In this document: piece by piece, positions 51,259-56,636 of the stretch
How positions within the stretch are numbered: the first letter of the stretch is position 1
How the letters are laid out: every line of letters starts with the position of its first letter
Origin: Pseudomonadota bacterium
GTDB lineage: Bacteria; Pseudomonadota; Gammaproteobacteria; Steroidobacterales; Woeseiaceae
Assembly: GCA_027618995.1 (NCBI GenBank)
Contig: JAQCGO010000014.1
Coordinates: 1 to 56,636, forward strand
Direction: 5' to 3'
Length of the DNA stretch: 56,636 nt
Program-made: the position numbers and the translations under genes
The notes under the pieces: model-generated
The model's input: only the letters and a program-made list of their open reading frames with translations
Database searches by the model: none
Told to the model about the DNA's origin: nothing

Positions 51259-52455
51259 ATGCAAAACATCCCGGAAATTAGGCTGAAGGCCGGACGCGAG
51301 AAGTCGATCCGGCGGCGCCACCCGTGGATCTTCTCCGGTGCAATCGAACGCGTCCACGGTGATCCTGAAGCCGGATCGACGGTGCGCGTGTTGTCGCAAT
51401 CCGGTGAATTTCTCGCCCACGCGGCCTGGTCGCCTGCATCGCAGATTCGAGCGCGGGCCTGGTCTTTCGACGAGGCAACCTCAATCGACGCCGCATTCAT
51501 CCGACAACGTGTGGCCCGGGCGATCGAATGGCGCCGGCAGCTGCAGCGGCTGGACGATGCCAGCGCGTGCCGCCTGGTCTTCAGCGAATCCGATGGTTTG
51601 CCCGGCCTGATTGTCGACCGCTATGGCGCCTACCTCGTTTGTCAGTTCTTATCGACCGGCGCGGAATTCTGGCGCGAAGCGATCGTCTCCGCCTTGGCCG
51701 AACTTCTGTCGCCGCGCGCAATTTACGAACGCTCGGAAGCCAGCGTCCGACGCAAGGAGGGTTTGGGCTTGCGCAGCGAGTTGTTGCGTGGCGAGCTGCC
51801 GGCCGAGCCGATCGAATTCAACAGCAACGGCATGCGCCAGCTGGTTCGCATCGAGCTGGGACAGAAAACCGGCAGCTATCTGGATCAGAGCGTAAATCAC
51901 GGCCGGGTTGCCGCTTATGCAGCGGGGGCCAGCGTCCTGGATGCCTACTCGTACTCCGGCGGTTTTGCGATTTCTGCCCTGCGCGGTGGCGCGGCCGACG
52001 CCACCCTGATTGACAGTTCCGCCGACGCGCTGCTGCTCGCCGAGCGCCAGGCTGCTCTGAATGGCGTTGCGGATCAATGTCAGTATACAAATGCCAACGT
52101 ACCGGAAGAACTGCGCCGGCTGCGCGATTCAGAGCGACGGTTCGACCTCGTCATCCTGGATCCGCCGAAGTTCGTAAGCTCAGCGCAACAATTGAAATCC
52201 GGCTGCCGGGGTTACAAGGACATCAATATGCTGGGTCTGCAGTTGCTGAAACCGGGTGGCGTGCTGGCAACGTTCTCCTGTTCCGGGCACGTCAGCGCTG
52301 ACCTCTTCCAGAAAATCGTGGCTGGCGCCGCCGTAGACGTGAAGCGCGACGCACAGATCATCGAGCGACTGTCGCAGGCTCCCGATCACCCGGTCGCGCT
52401 GCAATTTCCGGAGGCCGATTACCTCTGTGGACTCGTCGTTCGCCTGCTTGCCTGA
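51259..52455 (+). CDS. rlmI: 23S rRNA (cytosine1962-C5)-methyltransferase RlmI
   Basis: SAM-dependent methyltransferase of the RlmI/YccW family, 398 residues. The N-terminal PUA domain is RRRHPWIFSGAIERVHGD; the central domain includes ESDGLPGLIVDRYG; the Rossmann domain has LGQKTGSYLDQS, VLDAYSYSGGFAISA and the catalytic-loop LVILDPPKF. It starts 30 nt after yihY and may be cotranscribed. Intact. Confidence 0.93.
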   Translation: MQNIPEIRLKAGREKSIRRRHPWIFSGAIERVHGDPEAGSTVRVLSQSGEFLAHAAWSPASQIRARAWSFDEATSIDAAFIRQRVARAIEWRRQLQRLDDASACRLVFSESDGLPGLIVDRYGAYLVCQFLSTGAEFWREAIVSALAELLSPRAIYERSEASVRRKEGLGLRSELLRGELPAEPIEFNSNGMRQLVRIELGQKTGSYLDQSVNHGRVAAYAAGASVLDAYSYSGGFAISALRGGAADATLIDSSADALLLAERQAALNGVADQCQYTNANVPEELRRLRDSERRFDLVILDPPKFVSSAQQLKSGCRGYKDINMLGLQLLKPGGVLATFSCSGHVSADLFQKIVAGAAVDVKRDAQIIERLSQAPDHPVALQFPEADYLCGLVVRLLA

Positions 52456-52504
52456 GGCTGATTTCGGGATTTTTTTCGCCGTGCAAAATCTGTGAAAAGA
52501 ATGA

Positions 52505-52561
52505 TTGACAATCTAATGCTCAAGATTATAGTACCGCGAATAAGCGGCGGGCATACCCGCC
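52505..52561 (+). promoter_or_regulatory. Strong sigma70-type promoter and leader hairpin for the kamA cassette
   Basis: Consensus TTGACA (52505-52510) and TATAGT (52527-52532) are 16 nt apart. Transcription from about 52540 would give a leader of roughly 85 nt that begins with a perfect hairpin, GGCGGG-CATA-CCCGCC (52546-52561). The gap between rlmI and kamA (169 nt) holds nothing else recognised. Confidence 0.72.
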
Positions 52562-52624
52562 ACGACCCGAAGGGCCGAGCCGGTTTTCACTCGCAGGTCA
52601 CCCAACTGCACAGTAGGATGCTCG

Positions 52625-53872
52625 ATGAAAACCGCCCAAGTCGCCGCGGAAGAACCTCCCGGACCGCTGGTCCAACACGCCTCAAATTCATCACGATCAA
52701 TTGGTCCGTCACGGTTTCGCATCTCTAAGCGATCCGTAGAATTCCTGCACCGCTTCTACCCGGACGCGACGCTCGAAAACTGGAACGACTGGCGCTGGCA
52801 GAATCGCAACCGCGTTCGCACGCTTGCGGATCTGGCACGCATGATCGAACTCTCGGACGAAGAGTCCGATGCCATCAAGCGCCATACCGGCGCATTACCC
52901 GTGGGCATAACGCCCTACTACGTGAGCCTGCTTGATCCGCAGAATGCCGGCCAGGGACTGCGACGCACGGTTGTGCCAGTACTCGGGGAATGCGAGTCCT
53001 CACGTGCCGAAAGCGAAGACCCGCTCGGTGAGGATTCGCACAGCCCGGTACCGGGCCTCGTGCACCGCTATCCGAACCGGGTATTGCTGCTGGTCACCAA
53101 CTACTGCTCGGTTTATTGCCGCTATTGCACACGCGCGCGCATGGTCGGTGCGACCGGCGAACGCAGCGTAAAAAAGGGTGATATCGAACTGGCCCTCGAC
53201 TATATCGAGCAGACCAAAGCGGTTCGGGACGTGTTGATTTCCGGTGGCGACCCGCTGAGTCTCGACGACGATCGGCTCGAATACATCCTGAAACGACTGC
53301 AAAAGATCAAGCATGTCGAATTCGTCCGCATTGGCAGCAAACAACCGGTCGTTCAACCCATGCGCATCACGCCACAGCTGACGCGCATGCTCAAACGCTG
53401 CCATCCGCTTTGGATGAGTCTGCACTTTACGCACCCGGATGAACTGACACCGGAAGTTGCCGAAGCCTGCAGCCGACTCGCTGATGCCGGCATTCCTCTC
53501 GGCAGCCAGACGGTTTTGCTGAAAGTTGTCAATGACGACCTCGACACGATGAAGACTTTGATGCACGGGTTGCTGAAGAACCGCGTCAAGCCTTATTACC
53601 TGTACCAGTGTGACCCGATTTCCGGATCCGCGCACTTTCGTACGCCGGTGGCAAAAGGCGTCGAACTGATTCGCCGCCTGCGTGGCCATACGACCGGCTA
53701 CGCGGTACCAACCTTCGTTGTCGACGCACCCAATGGCGGCGGCAAAATTCCGATTTCACCCGATTACGTGACCGGCTATGACGGCGACGACCTGCTGTTG
53801 CAGAGCTATGACGGTGATACCTATCGCTATCCGGATTCCGGGCAGCGACTGACGCGCGGGCCGGGAGCCTGA
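52625..53872 (+). CDS. kamA: Lysine 2,3-aminomutase (KamA, radical SAM, PLP)
   Basis: Radical SAM enzyme converting L-lysine to beta-lysine. 415 residues, full KamA length rather than the shorter EpmB. The [4Fe-4S] motif C161-x3-C165-x2-C168 is in YCSVYCRYCTRARM, and the PLP lysine is Lys374 in APNGGGKIP. Asp330 (YQCDPISG) and Asp367 (FVVDAP) correspond to the two Asp residues that bind the substrate epsilon-amino group in clostridial KAM, so lysine rather than glutamate is the likely substrate. First gene of a cassette with two ATP-grasp ligase genes and an acetyltransferase; no epmA/genX is adjacent. Confidence 0.92.
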   Translation: MKTAQVAAEEPPGPLVQHASNSSRSIGPSRFRISKRSVEFLHRFYPDATLENWNDWRWQNRNRVRTLADLARMIELSDEESDAIKRHTGALPVGITPYYVSLLDPQNAGQGLRRTVVPVLGECESSRAESEDPLGEDSHSPVPGLVHRYPNRVLLLVTNYCSVYCRYCTRARMVGATGERSVKKGDIELALDYIEQTKAVRDVLISGGDPLSLDDDRLEYILKRLQKIKHVEFVRIGSKQPVVQPMRITPQLTRMLKRCHPLWMSLHFTHPDELTPEVAEACSRLADAGIPLGSQTVLLKVVNDDLDTMKTLMHGLLKNRVKPYYLYQCDPISGSAHFRTPVAKGVELIRRLRGHTTGYAVPTFVVDAPNGGGKIPISPDYVTGYDGDDLLLQSYDGDTYRYPDSGQRLTRGPGA

Positions 53873-53874
53873 AC

Positions 53875-54900
53875 ATGAAGAATAACGGGATTAGGATTGG
53901 CCTGACTTACGACCTGCGTGATGCCTACCTCGCCGAAGGTTACAGTGAAATCGACACCGCCGAGTTTGATCGCGCCGCCACCATCGATAGCATCGAGACG
54001 ACGCTCACCATGCAGGGCTACGCTGTTGATCAGATCGGCAATGTGAAACAACTCGCGGCACGTCTGACCAAGGGTGACACCTGGGACATGGTGTTCAATA
54101 TCTGCGAAGGGATGCATGGCATCGCTCGCGAGGCACAGGTTCCGGCTTTGCTCGACGCGTACGAGATTCCTTATGTGTTCTCGGACGCTCTCGTCTGCGC
54201 CCTGACCCTGCACAAAGGTATGACGAAGGACGTTGTACGAGCCGCCGGAGTTGCAACACCCGACTACGCCATCGTGCACGAATTAGCGGATGTGAAGAAC
54301 GTCACTTTGCCGCTGCCGTTGTTTGCAAAACCCACCGCTGAGGGAACCGGCAAGGGTATCAACGCAAATTCGAAGATCAATAGCATGGCGGAGCTTCGCA
54401 GCGTCTGCCGACAGCTGTTGAACGAGCACAAGGGGCAACCGGTGCTCGTTGAGCGGTTCCTCCCCGGCCGCGAATTCACGGTTGGCATCATCGGTACAGG
54501 TCGCAAAGCCAAGGCACTCGCAACGATGGAAATCGTGTTGTTGGATAACGCGGATGCCGAAGTCTATTCGTATCGCAACAAAGAGGAATGCGAGGAACTG
54601 GTGCAATACAGCTTGCTCTCGGCCGGACAACTGCGACAGGAAGTAGAGGCGCTGGCACTGCGTAGCTGGCGTGCGCTTGGCTGTCGCGATGCAGGTCGTA
54701 TCGACGTGCGCCTGGATGACAACGGACAGGTACATTTCATTGAGGTGAACCCGCTCGCCGGCATACATCCGGAGCACTCTGACCTGCCAATCATGGCAAT
54801 CATGATCGGCGTCAAGTACGACGTCCTGATCGGCCGAATCATGGCATCTGCGATGCTGCGCCTCAAACGGACAATACGAGCAGAATCGGTTGCCGCCTGA
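53875..54900 (+). CDS. D-Ala-D-Ala-ligase-like ATP-grasp protein 1 of the kamA cassette
   Basis: 341-residue ATP-grasp ligase related to Ddl but more divergent than cell-wall Ddl. The N-terminal domain has RIGLTYDLRDAYLAEGYSE and FNICEGMHGIAREAQVPALL. The ATP-binding loop is FAKPTAEGTGKGI, followed by VLVERFLPGREFTVGII and the metal site in GRIDVRLDDNGQ with FIEVNPLAGIHPEHSDLP. It starts 2 nt after kamA. Likely forms an amide between two amino acids; beta-lysine from KamA is the obvious candidate substrate, but this is inference. No mur or fts genes are nearby, so a cell-wall Ddl role is unlikely. Confidence 0.82.
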   Translation: MKNNGIRIGLTYDLRDAYLAEGYSEIDTAEFDRAATIDSIETTLTMQGYAVDQIGNVKQLAARLTKGDTWDMVFNICEGMHGIAREAQVPALLDAYEIPYVFSDALVCALTLHKGMTKDVVRAAGVATPDYAIVHELADVKNVTLPLPLFAKPTAEGTGKGINANSKINSMAELRSVCRQLLNEHKGQPVLVERFLPGREFTVGIIGTGRKAKALATMEIVLLDNADAEVYSYRNKEECEELVQYSLLSAGQLRQEVEALALRSWRALGCRDAGRIDVRLDDNGQVHFIEVNPLAGIHPEHSDLPIMAIMIGVKYDVLIGRIMASAMLRLKRTIRAESVAA

Positions 54901-55870
54901 TTTCCCTAGATCGGTCCTGGTATTACATGAAACAATAAGTGCCGACGCGCGTGCCGACGAGGTAGACACGCTCGTCCAGGCCAACTACGTCGCCGACGTA
55001 ATGCGGGATCTTGGCTGGAGCGTTACAACCCTGGCCACGGACCTTTAACTGTCGAGCACGCTTGCAGCGATTTCGGCTGCGGGTCCGGAGTGCGTATTCA
55101 ACCTGGTCGAGTCGCTACAAGGTGACGGCCGCCTGGTGCACGTCCTGCCCGCCCTGCTGGCGGCCTCCGGCAAGCGATTCACCGGCTGCGACAGCGACGC
55201 GATGTACCTGAGCTCACAAAAACTGCTCGCGAAGCGCTGGATGAAGCTGCATGGCATTCCGACGCCGAAGAGCTTTCTGCCCGGAGATGAAAAGCCGGTG
55301 GGCAACACGACCTGGATCGTAAAGTCGCTCTGGGAACACGCATCGCTTGGTCTTGACGACGATTGCGTCGTCAATAGTCTGACAGCGGCGCGGGCGCGCA
55401 TTGATCATTGCCATGCGCAACACGGTGGCGTCTGGTTTGCCGAGGAGTTTGTCGACGGCCGGGAATTCAATGTATCGGTGCTCGAAGTGGGCCGCAAACC
55501 GCAAATCCTGCCGATTGCAGAGATGACTTTCGTTGACTATCCGCCCGGCAAGCCAAAAATCGTCGGCTATGCGGCGAAATGGGACGACGCTGCGCCTGAG
55601 TTTCACGCCACACAACGCTCGTTCGCCAAACTGCCGAGCGCCGAGCACGACGCCATTATTGATGTCGTGCAGAAATGCTGGAGCGCCTTTCATCTTCGTG
55701 GCTATGCACGAATTGATCTGCGAATGGACGCGGCTGGGGTACCCTGGGTGCTCGAGATCAATGCCAACCCGTGTTTGTCCCCGGACGCAGGCTTCGCCGC
55801 CGCTGTCATCGAGGCCGGCATGACGCCGACCAGGGCCATTGAGCACATCGTTAGCGCTGCAATGCATTGA
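54890..55870 (+). pseudogene. D-Ala-D-Ala-ligase-like ATP-grasp protein 2 of the kamA cassette, in-frame TAA
   Basis: A second ATP-grasp ligase, homologous in plan to the previous gene. From a TTG overlapping the upstream stop it reads SVLVLHETISADARADEVDT and VADVMRDLGWSVTTLATDL, then TAA (55046-55048), then LSSTLAAISAAGPECVFNLV and a normal body: FTGCDSDAMYLSSQKLLAKR, VKSLWEHASLGLDD, FAEEFVDGREFNVSVLE and YARIDLRMDAAGVPWVLEIN. A GAA-to-TAA change would explain the stop. An ORF of 244 residues can restart at 55136 but lacks the N-terminal strands. It could be a pseudogene, a restart product, or a sequencing error. Confidence 0.78.
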
Positions 55871-55884
55871 GACAAGAAACAATA

Positions 55885-56364
55885 ATGCGCTGGCGTTGCA
55901 CGTTGCAGGCGTCGGATGCCGCAGCCGTTGGCACACTCGTGGCCGACACCGGTTTTTTCTCGCCGGACGAAACACTCATCGCGATTGAGCTCGTCGAAGA
56001 AACCCTTACACGCGGCAAGGAAAGCGGCTACGAATTCCTGTTCGCCGATGATCCGGAGGGCCAGTTGCTGGGCTACACCTGCTACGGGCCGATTCCGGCC
56101 ACCCAATCCAGCTTTGACCTGTACTGGATCGCGGTATCGCCGCAGGCACAACGCCAGGGCATGGGTGCCAAACTCGTGCGGGAAACCGAAAGCCTCGCGA
56201 AACAGCAAGGAGCAACCCGCATGTTCGTCGACACCGCCGGTCGCGCGGAATACGTGCCGACGCGGGCGTTCTACGAACGCATGGGCTACCACGTCGAAGC
56301 CAGCATTACCGATTTCTACGCACCCGGCGACGCCAAGGTTATCTACGCCAAAAGCCTGGCCTGA
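55885..56364 (+). CDS. GNAT family N-acetyltransferase of the kamA cassette
   Basis: About 159 residues from ATG 55885; a TTG at 55867 overlapping the previous stop is an alternative start. The GNAT core is seen in LLGYTCYGPIP, FDLYWIAVSPQAQRQGMGAKL (acetyl-CoA pyrophosphate loop Q-R-Q-G-M-G) and TRAFYERMGYHVEA. In methanogens and some bacteria KamA (AblA) works with an acetyltransferase (AblB) to make N-epsilon-acetyl-beta-lysine, an osmolyte; here a similar final acetylation is possible but the two ligases suggest a larger product. Confidence 0.85.
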   Translation: MRWRCTLQASDAAAVGTLVADTGFFSPDETLIAIELVEETLTRGKESGYEFLFADDPEGQLLGYTCYGPIPATQSSFDLYWIAVSPQAQRQGMGAKLVRETESLAKQQGATRMFVDTAGRAEYVPTRAFYERMGYHVEASITDFYAPGDAKVIYAKSLA

Positions 56365-56466
56365 CAAAGCTTACTCGGCACGATCATCGGATCTGGCGGT
56401 CAGCACGCGGAGGCAGTATACTTCGCGCAAATAATTTCTCTAATAATCAATGTATTGCGGTTAATA
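56365..56466. other. Intergenic leader with candidate -10
   Basis: About 100 nt between the acetyltransferase and the last small ORF. TATACT lies within GGCAGTATACTTCGC, but no convincing -35 accompanies it. The 3' half is unusually A+T-rich compared with its surroundings. Confidence 0.3.
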
Positions 56467-56601
56467 ATGTCAGGATTTTTCGACCTCATCACAGGCCTTT
56501 TCTACCGCTTCGCAGCCAGCGGTTTCCTGCCGGCGGCCTGGTTTCACAAGCGTAATCCGGCCAAAGTCAAAAAAGCGCAGCGCACCGGCAAGGTATTATA
56601 A
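56467..56601 (+). CDS. Small ORF, 44 residues, amphipathic and basic
   Basis: Reads MSGFFDLITGLFYRFAASGF, then LPAAWFHKRNPAKVKKAQRT and GKVL. A hydrophobic aromatic N-terminal half is followed by a Lys/Arg-rich tail with His-Lys-Arg, ending in TAA. No clear ribosome site beyond an A/T-rich leader. It lies 102 nt after the acetyltransferase on the same strand, so it may belong to the kamA cassette or start a new unit. No family recognised; function unknown. Coding status rests on composition and position only. Confidence 0.5.
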   Translation: MSGFFDLITGLFYRFAASGFLPAAWFHKRNPAKVKKAQRTGKVL

Positions 56602-56636
56602 AACAGGGTTAGGAAATACTGGCAATACGGCCACTT

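Follow-up and report, generated by a model that had tools for sequence, protein, structure and literature searches.

The DNA analysed here, called the window throughout, is a stretch of 56,636 nucleotides that makes up the entire contig C7 (JAQCGO010000014.1, assembly GCA_027618995.1) of a gammaproteobacterium of the family Woeseiaceae, whose genome (the host genome) measures 2.54 Mb at 97% completeness. On its forward strand it carries a row of genes for a lysine 2,3-aminomutase family enzyme (KamA), two ATP-grasp ligases related to D-alanine-D-alanine ligase (Ddl) and termed AG1 and AG2, and a GNAT acetyltransferase, which we examined as a candidate pathway for a beta-lysine amide. In relatives, a gene for a GNAT-like domain fused to a histone deacetylase (HDAC) domain lies among them. 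The features are as follows:

52505..52532, plus strand: sigma-70 type promoter, TTGACA-16-TATAGT, 11/12 consensus matches
52535..52624, plus strand: conserved leader ahead of kamA, candidate structured RNA
52625..53872, plus strand: kamA, radical SAM enzyme of the lysine 2,3-aminomutase family, 415 aa
53875..54900, plus strand: AG1, the first Ddl-like ATP-grasp ligase, intact, 341 aa
54890..55870, plus strand: AG2, the second Ddl-like ATP-grasp ligase, its frame broken by a TAA
55871..55884, no strand: 14-nt junction between AG2 and GNAT, the site of the GNAT-HDAC fusion gene of relatives, which is absent here
55885..56364, plus strand: GNAT acetyltransferase, 159 aa from its ATG, of the same family as structure 2r7h

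A first-pass annotation, made from the letters of the window, had described one strong promoter followed by these four genes with 2-nt or overlapping junctions. The coordinates bear out the order; kamA and AG1 are 2 nt apart, and AG1 and AG2 overlap if AG2 starts with the TTG at 54890, as it does in the relative L020. The promoter is indeed close to consensus: its TTGACA and TATAnT elements are invariant across 13 aligned family loci, and the region 52300-56636 contains five promoter-like sites against 2.1 (sd 1.3) in shuffles. What had been overlooked are the stop codon in AG2, the fifth gene of the relatives and the conserved kamA leader.

Recurrence of the gene set was evaluated in 102 loci, 13 from the family, 12 from the class and 77 from the best 80 of a genome-contig scan, after three duplicates (L058-L060, of G009, G080 and G029) and L033/G049, with an ATP-grasp protein of 30% identity and no cassette, had been dropped. 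Loci were considered evaluable if the sequence flanking AG1 reached at least 2.5 kb on its upstream and 3.6 kb on its downstream side (63 loci: 7 family, 10 class, 46 scan). In 54 of these 63, kamA, AG2 and GNAT adjoin AG1 on the same strand, so the linkage of the four genes is recurrent, and its absence elsewhere, which the first-pass annotation had named as a refuting result, does not apply. The order is KamA-AG1-AG2-GNAT in 31 and KamA-AG1-AG2-HDAC-GNAT in 19, with HDAC elsewhere in four and an incomplete set in nine (L062, L067, L068, L070, L075, L078, L097, L116, L137); HDAC is found in 23 of the 63, at three different positions. Components are fused to one another in 10 of the 102 loci, namely AG1-AG2 in one (L071), AG2-GNAT in two (L049, L135) and HDAC-GNAT in seven (L050, L051, L099, L107, L113, L128, L132).

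The named relatives of AG1 belong to Woeseiaceae and other Gammaproteobacteria. Species-level genomes contain at least 554 AG1 relatives (tblastn with an alignment as query, E<=1e-3), not all of which need be orthologs, and the best 80 of these, nearly all in metagenome-assembled genomes (MAGs), include loci labelled as Gammaproteobacteria, Deltaproteobacteria, Planctomycetes, Bacteroidetes, Acidobacteria, Aminicenantes, Fibrobacteres, Sumerlaeota, WOR-3 and Neomarinimicrobiota. Within the family, AG1 is matched at E<=1e-30 in 15 of 107 genomes, including G049 with its relative of 32% identity and no cassette. In a class sample of 369 genomes, AG1 is present at E<=1e-60 in 13, and exactly these 13 have kamA at E<=1e-158 (58-100% identity); relaxing the kamA threshold to E<=1e-80 yields 18 genomes, the five extra ones being 41-46% identical and outside the AG1 set. 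AG2 is found at E<=1e-48 in 13 genomes, which are the AG1 set minus G417 (contig end) plus G270 (AG2 at a contig end). Divergence is correlated across 70 loci for all pairs (AG2/GNAT r=0.72, AG1/AG2 0.68, KamA/AG1 0.47, AG2/KamA 0.45, AG1/GNAT 0.44, GNAT/KamA 0.33), with shuffle maxima of 0.13-0.17 and with shared species history still included in these values.

Aligned to the lysine 2,3-aminomutase (LAM) of C. subterminale (PDB 2a5h), KamA of the window has the equivalents of C125/C129/C132, R134, D293, D330 and K337, which we take to be the CxxxCxxC cluster, the carboxylate-binding Arg, the two Asp contacting the epsilon-amino group and the pyridoxal phosphate lysine. The catalytic and both lysine-recognising positions are invariant in 92/92 KamA sequences (91 loci and the window). 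The enzyme had been called full-length with both substrate-recognising Asp; the Asp and the other catalytic residues are kept, but the alignment with 2a5h stops at residue 366 of its 416 and the C-terminal region is short. AblA is the top-scoring equivalog model for the protein, and the EpmB model TIGR03821 is not reached (242.3 bits, cut-off 369.3).

This bears on whether the cassette KamA mainly feeds beta-lysine to EpmA for the lysylation of elongation factor P (EF-P), with the other genes as unrelated passengers. The host genome does encode EpmA (TIGR00462, 321 bits, cut-off 286.9; PRK09350, 263.5 bits, just under 264) and an EF-P with the KPGKGQA lysine (TIGR00038, 248.9 bits, cut-off 185.8), both in one 3.9-kb stretch of contig C63 (L235, 1462-2430 and 2889-3572); EpmB exceeds its TIGR03821 cut-off in none of the 107 family genomes, the host genome included, and the window KamA is the sole KamA match of the host genome. 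The earlier statement that epmA is missing therefore describes the window correctly and fails genome-wide. Other findings weaken EF-P modification as the purpose of the cassette: KamA is not an EpmB, the cassette occurs in 14 of the 107 family genomes, and 87 of them have no KamA-like match at E<=1e-30, so EF-P modification in the family, with epmA sought in the host genome, can hardly depend on this enzyme. Moreover, kamA is tied to AG1, AG2 and GNAT across phyla, the ligases and the distribution of the cassette would go unexplained, and the two enzymes differ in stereochemistry, LAM yielding (S)- and EpmB (R)-beta-lysine. EF-P modification was rejected as the purpose of the cassette, a role that we regard as very improbable; a side role of this KamA in EF-P lysylation is conceivable.

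AG1 and AG2, paralogs of each other, are ATP-grasp proteins of the Ddl type that score over the cut-off for the superfamily domain PF07478 and align with Ddl across their C-terminal two thirds, yet fall short of the NCBIfam Ddl cut-offs (AG1 at best 151.9 against 243 bits, the AG2 remainder 73.8 against 243). At the Ser-Leu pair of Ddl, AG1 has Ser-Asp in 29/29 sequences; in AG2, Lys-Trp replaces Lys-Tyr in 27/27, and Asp is found in 25/27. In E. coli DdlB these pairs have acceptor and catalytic roles, and the replacements suggest an acceptor pocket altered to suit a charged substrate. The GNAT has 2r7h as its nearest solved relative (E 1.8e-55), a protein annotated as putative D-alanine N-acetyltransferase, and this name, together with the Ddl family membership of AG1 and AG2, would be compatible with a D-amino-acid or cell-wall pathway in which D-Ala-D-Ala-type ligases act beside a GNAT that acetylates D-alanine. 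Such a pathway is highly unlikely: every Ddl model shown stays below its cut-off, the Ddl signature residues are replaced, a separate and stronger Ddl-domain match lies on contig C74 of the host genome (1.7e-50), KamA has no place in it, and whoever named 2r7h was probably guessing from the genes around it. As a separate observation, a second family of Ddl-like ATP-grasp proteins, about 30% identical to AG2 (L213, L214, L216, L217), repeatedly stands with one and the same kind of partner gene; as this partner differs from that of the cassette, the group was excluded from the counts.

Two ATP-grasp genes had been claimed for the window, and this is true of AG1; AG2 is not intact. A TAA at 55046-55048 interrupts its frame (about 54890-55870), at a position where 11 aligned relatives have GAC (5), GAT (5) or AAC (1), coding for Asp or Asn. 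The remaining open reading frame (ORF) at 55136-55870, with a GTG start and 244 codons for amino acids, is devoid of the N-terminal region in which the conserved motifs DE.D...Q and FNLVE lie. Three contigs, the longest of 76,586 bases, encode the identical 244-aa protein, so the stop codon seems not to be confined to the contig of the window. The window copy of AG2 is probably non-functional. Speaking against this, the part downstream of the stop shows no release from selection, with a dN/dS of 0.105 relative to the nearest relative L020, compared with 0.147 between the intact copies of L020 and L021; hence either the loss is recent or the protein is still made somehow.

The AblB model TIGR03827 has no match in the host genome at E<=10 and touches 2/21 cassette GNATs, with a best E of 4.8e-6. 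In the nearest relative, G081 (kamA 94% identical), a gene of about 1.75 kb between AG2 and GNAT encodes a protein of 586 aa, and this fifth gene is present in 10 of 11 evaluable family relatives, in one of the ten cut by the contig end; among the 13 family loci it is missing from L026, and the sequences of L031 and L032 are too short on this side to judge. It comprises a GNAT-like domain fused to an HDAC domain (PF00850, 246.6 bits), for which the nearest solved relatives are acetylpolyamine amidohydrolases (PDB 6phr, 9gkz, 3men, 3q9b). The zinc and catalytic motifs, which we take to be the His-His dyad, DxDxH, Asp and Tyr, are invariant in 12/12 sequences, nine of them from cassettes. A GNAT-HDAC fusion was not found in the host genome at E<=1e-100, which has three other HDAC-family genes. 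As the fifth gene is absent from the window and its genome and present in most relatives, it would have been lost or gained more than once. With the stop codon in AG2 and the deacetylase gene missing, the host genome probably has a pathway that no longer works or is in decay. Outside the cassette, fusions at 14 gammaproteobacterial loci (L198-L211) have no constant neighbours; no family beside these 14 is common to more than two, save the fusion itself and an AG2-like ORF at one locus.

From conserved residues and gene linkage, we consider it somewhat probable that the genes form a self-contained cassette for the biosynthesis of a beta-lysine amide that can be acetylated. KamA would convert L-lysine to beta-lysine, AG1 and AG2 would turn carboxylates into acyl phosphates and from these make two amide bonds in succession, yielding a di- or tripeptide containing beta-lysine, and GNAT would acetylate a free amine. 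Where the GNAT-HDAC fusion is present, in about one third of the evaluable loci, it could remove the acetyl group and render the charge of the product switchable. In this family, one promoter and the conserved leader would set the expression of the cassette. The acetylated beta-lysine di- or tripeptide originally proposed is still the best reading, with the amendments that AG2 is broken here and that the relatives mostly have a deacetylase-type fifth gene.

Several findings weigh against this reading. The loci were selected non-randomly by similarity to AG1, whereby the cassette is over-represented. Nine of the 63 evaluable loci have no GNAT, being KamA-AG1 (4), KamA-AG1-AG2 (2), AG1 alone (2) or AG1-AG2 (1), and GNAT is a whole-ORF match in 45 of the 63, the rest of the 54 being fused ORFs scored by domain. 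KamA does not reach the AblA equivalog TIGR03820 (468.5 bits, cut-off 525.4), nor does KamA from two other cassettes (490.3 and 485.8 bits). The GNAT-HDAC fusion is found in 18 of the 369 class genomes, five with and 13 without the cassette, which makes it a shared module and not a cassette-only enzyme.

Two further functions were weighed against the beta-lysine amide cassette as formulated above. The genes could provide a compatible solute, either N-acetyl-beta-lysine or an acetylated beta-lysine dipeptide, in the manner of AblA/AblB; AblA being the top equivalog model for KamA and some hosts being labelled marine agree with this, as do the Na+ and c-di-AMP riboswitches that, according to PMC9337991, govern an ablA gene in Dehalobacter. 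At gathering score, the 32 of the 102 cassette loci that were searched contain no known riboswitch, only rRNA, tRNA and tmRNA being matched, and an osmolyte role by way of known riboswitches was discarded on this result. The AblB model is absent from the host genome and largely from the cassette GNATs, two amide ligases and a deacetylase would be superfluous, and the hosts, which by label include bacteria from fen, groundwater and an upflow anaerobic sludge blanket (UASB) reactor, are not only saline. The osmolyte role suggested by the first-pass annotation finds no direct support here and is unlikely; that annotation had also noted that the extra ligases do not fit a simple AblAB system, and the GNAT is not AblB by model.

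Beta-lysine is also a building block of streptothricin-type antibiotics, a precedent that, with the scattered distribution (13/369 class genomes), would fit a secreted specialised metabolite such as a metallophore, antibiotic or signal. Against it, a scan of 125 of the 238 proteins encoded nearby showed no dedicated exporter, NRPS (non-ribosomal peptide synthetase) or resistance gene recurring beside the cassette and no Pfam family matched by more than six of them, and we judge this function unlikely as well.

The leader of kamA was modelled with the following elements, where P1 is a hairpin, P2 a stem of 7 bp and P3 a stem of 4 bp:

52546-52561, plus strand: P1 hairpin
52563-52569/52576-52582, plus strand: P2, with loop 52570-52575
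52593-52596/52606-52609, plus strand: P3
52572-52575 with 52600-52603, plus strand: kissing contact between the P2 loop and the P3 loop (GGGC/GCCC)
52581-52589, plus strand: anti-start strand, CGGUUUUCA, pairing with the kamA start at 52626-52634

Leader identity between the window and nine relatives amounts to 63-92%; fourfold degenerate kamA sites reach 43-70%, the sequence preceding the promoter 13-78% and kamA overall 72-88%. The leader is hence kept better than silent sites and not better than coding sequence. Across 15 sequences, 94.2% of the cells of P2, P3 and the loop contact pair, against 22-47% in slid controls, and four pairs (five cells) change on both sides, against 1.0 (1.1) in shuffles (1/500 and 0/500 shuffles as high), with a covariation score of 2/500 and further pair types at 332/500; the shuffles leave relatedness in. 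P3 is invariant, one particular pair of P2 is disrupted in 8/15, and the window leader fails to form one pair in P2 and one in the loop contact that the others keep. The P1 stem has at least five pairs in 12/15 sequences, as have 30% of shuffled segments. In the anti-start helix three pairs change on both sides (1/500), yet the +3 slid control also gives three, and one of its strands is coding. RNAalifold prefers another partition, in which the anti-start helix is present and the 7-bp P2 absent. Evidence contrary to a structured leader comes from two sides. Without L081 and L221 (13 sequences), two pairs (83/500) and three cells (12/500) remain, with cells paired at 51/500, so that much of the covariation support hangs on the distant L081; and the window leader on its own folds no better than chance (z -1.30, 25/200 shuffles as good).

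A model of the leader, R1, built from 13 sequences, gave 14 strong matches (E<=3e-14) among the 107 family genomes, which are exactly the 14 cassette genomes with one copy each; as 13 are in the model by construction, the new information is the fourteenth match (G089, at a contig end) and that there are no other copies. In 90 sources, some of which do not include the region before kamA, only the window and L081, from a SAR86-labelled MAG, are matched (L081 at E 1.1e-6), which makes the leader a lineage feature. In L081 it is followed by what by eye resembles a remnant of the start of kamA, with HDAC coming next, so that the locus is weak evidence for independent reuse of the leader. Matches in G032, G066 and G056 (E 1e-3 to 6e-3) were rejected by eye, as they lie over long reading frames belonging to other genes. 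Rfam 15 contains no match to the leader at E<=1, and at E<=10 two minus-strand matches far below gathering score. The partial covariation is consistent with a leader that may adopt one of two states, a fold of three hairpins held by a kissing contact or a pairing that hides the start codon of kamA, the switch between the two being our proposal, and the leader may be a new regulatory RNA.

A more far-reaching interpretation joins these strands: an undescribed, widespread cationic beta-lysine peptide would be made by a Ddl-derived ligase pair, its charge switched by the acetyltransferase and the HDAC protein, and, in one gammaproteobacterial family, its synthesis controlled by a new class of kissing-loop leader RNA that masks the kamA start. 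We put this forward tentatively and rate it as possible, though less likely than not; counting against it, support for the leader is weak without L081 and 13 of the 14 model matches are built in. If true, such a peptide would be a small-molecule counterpart of polyamine acetylation. A conserved pathway without a known product predicts a concrete new metabolite, and the cassette gives a context to Ddl-like ligases and, in its leader, offers a candidate regulatory RNA with a testable trigger. The general cassette and the family leader are of more interest than the damaged copy in the window.

Some genes flanking the cassette are recorded here as side observations. A gene with a CxxCxxCC cysteine cluster (YkgJ-type) directly precedes AG1 in nine loci (L070, L078, L080, L095, L099, L110, L132, L134, L137), mainly from Planctomycetes and some Deltaproteobacteria; of the three checked against Pfam, L078 and L099 are over the PF03692 cut-off and L132 is just under it. 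CorA after and a PhoU-like gene (by eye) before the cassette occur in L087, L089, L117 and L123, and DUF47 with a phosphate permease after it in L062, L075, L106, L114 and L136, with Pfam checks made for L117 and L106. A link to magnesium or phosphate, considered from the counts among the 125 neighbours (CorA 4, PHO4 4, DUF47 4, MgtE 2), was dismissed as the first three cluster in two lineage groups. The gene after GNAT (56467-56636; compare L020, 1228-2109, minus strand) has an in-frame TAA at 56599-56601, near the contig end.

In the literature searched, no such cassette was found, although a 2009 survey of ATP-grasp amidoligases may mention a similar operon; the kamA-ligase-ligase-(GNAT-HDAC)-GNAT pathway is apparently uncharacterised. 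With the AblA/AblB pathway to N-epsilon-acetyl-beta-lysine it shares a lysine 2,3-aminomutase family enzyme and a GNAT, but its GNAT is of another subfamily, it has two extra ATP-grasp ligases and often a GNAT-HDAC protein, and its KamA lies below the AblA cut-off. The ablA riboswitch leader responsive to Na+ and c-di-AMP, as described in PMC9337991, is likewise a conserved leader before a lysine aminomutase gene, whereas the kamA leader matches no Rfam family. Common to the EpmA/EpmB system are the radical SAM KamA family and beta-lysine as a likely intermediate; the cassette KamA, however, is under the EpmB cut-off (242 against 369 bits), and its neighbours are small-molecule ligases. Members of the Ddl/VanA family have PF07478 and the alignment of the C-terminal two thirds in common with AG1 and AG2, which differ from them in acceptor-site residues and stay below the model cut-offs shown. 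Finally, the fifth gene of the relatives shares its HDAC domain, with intact zinc motifs, with acetylpolyamine amidohydrolases, and differs from these in its N-terminal GNAT-like domain and, in seven loci, in an additional C-terminal GNAT.

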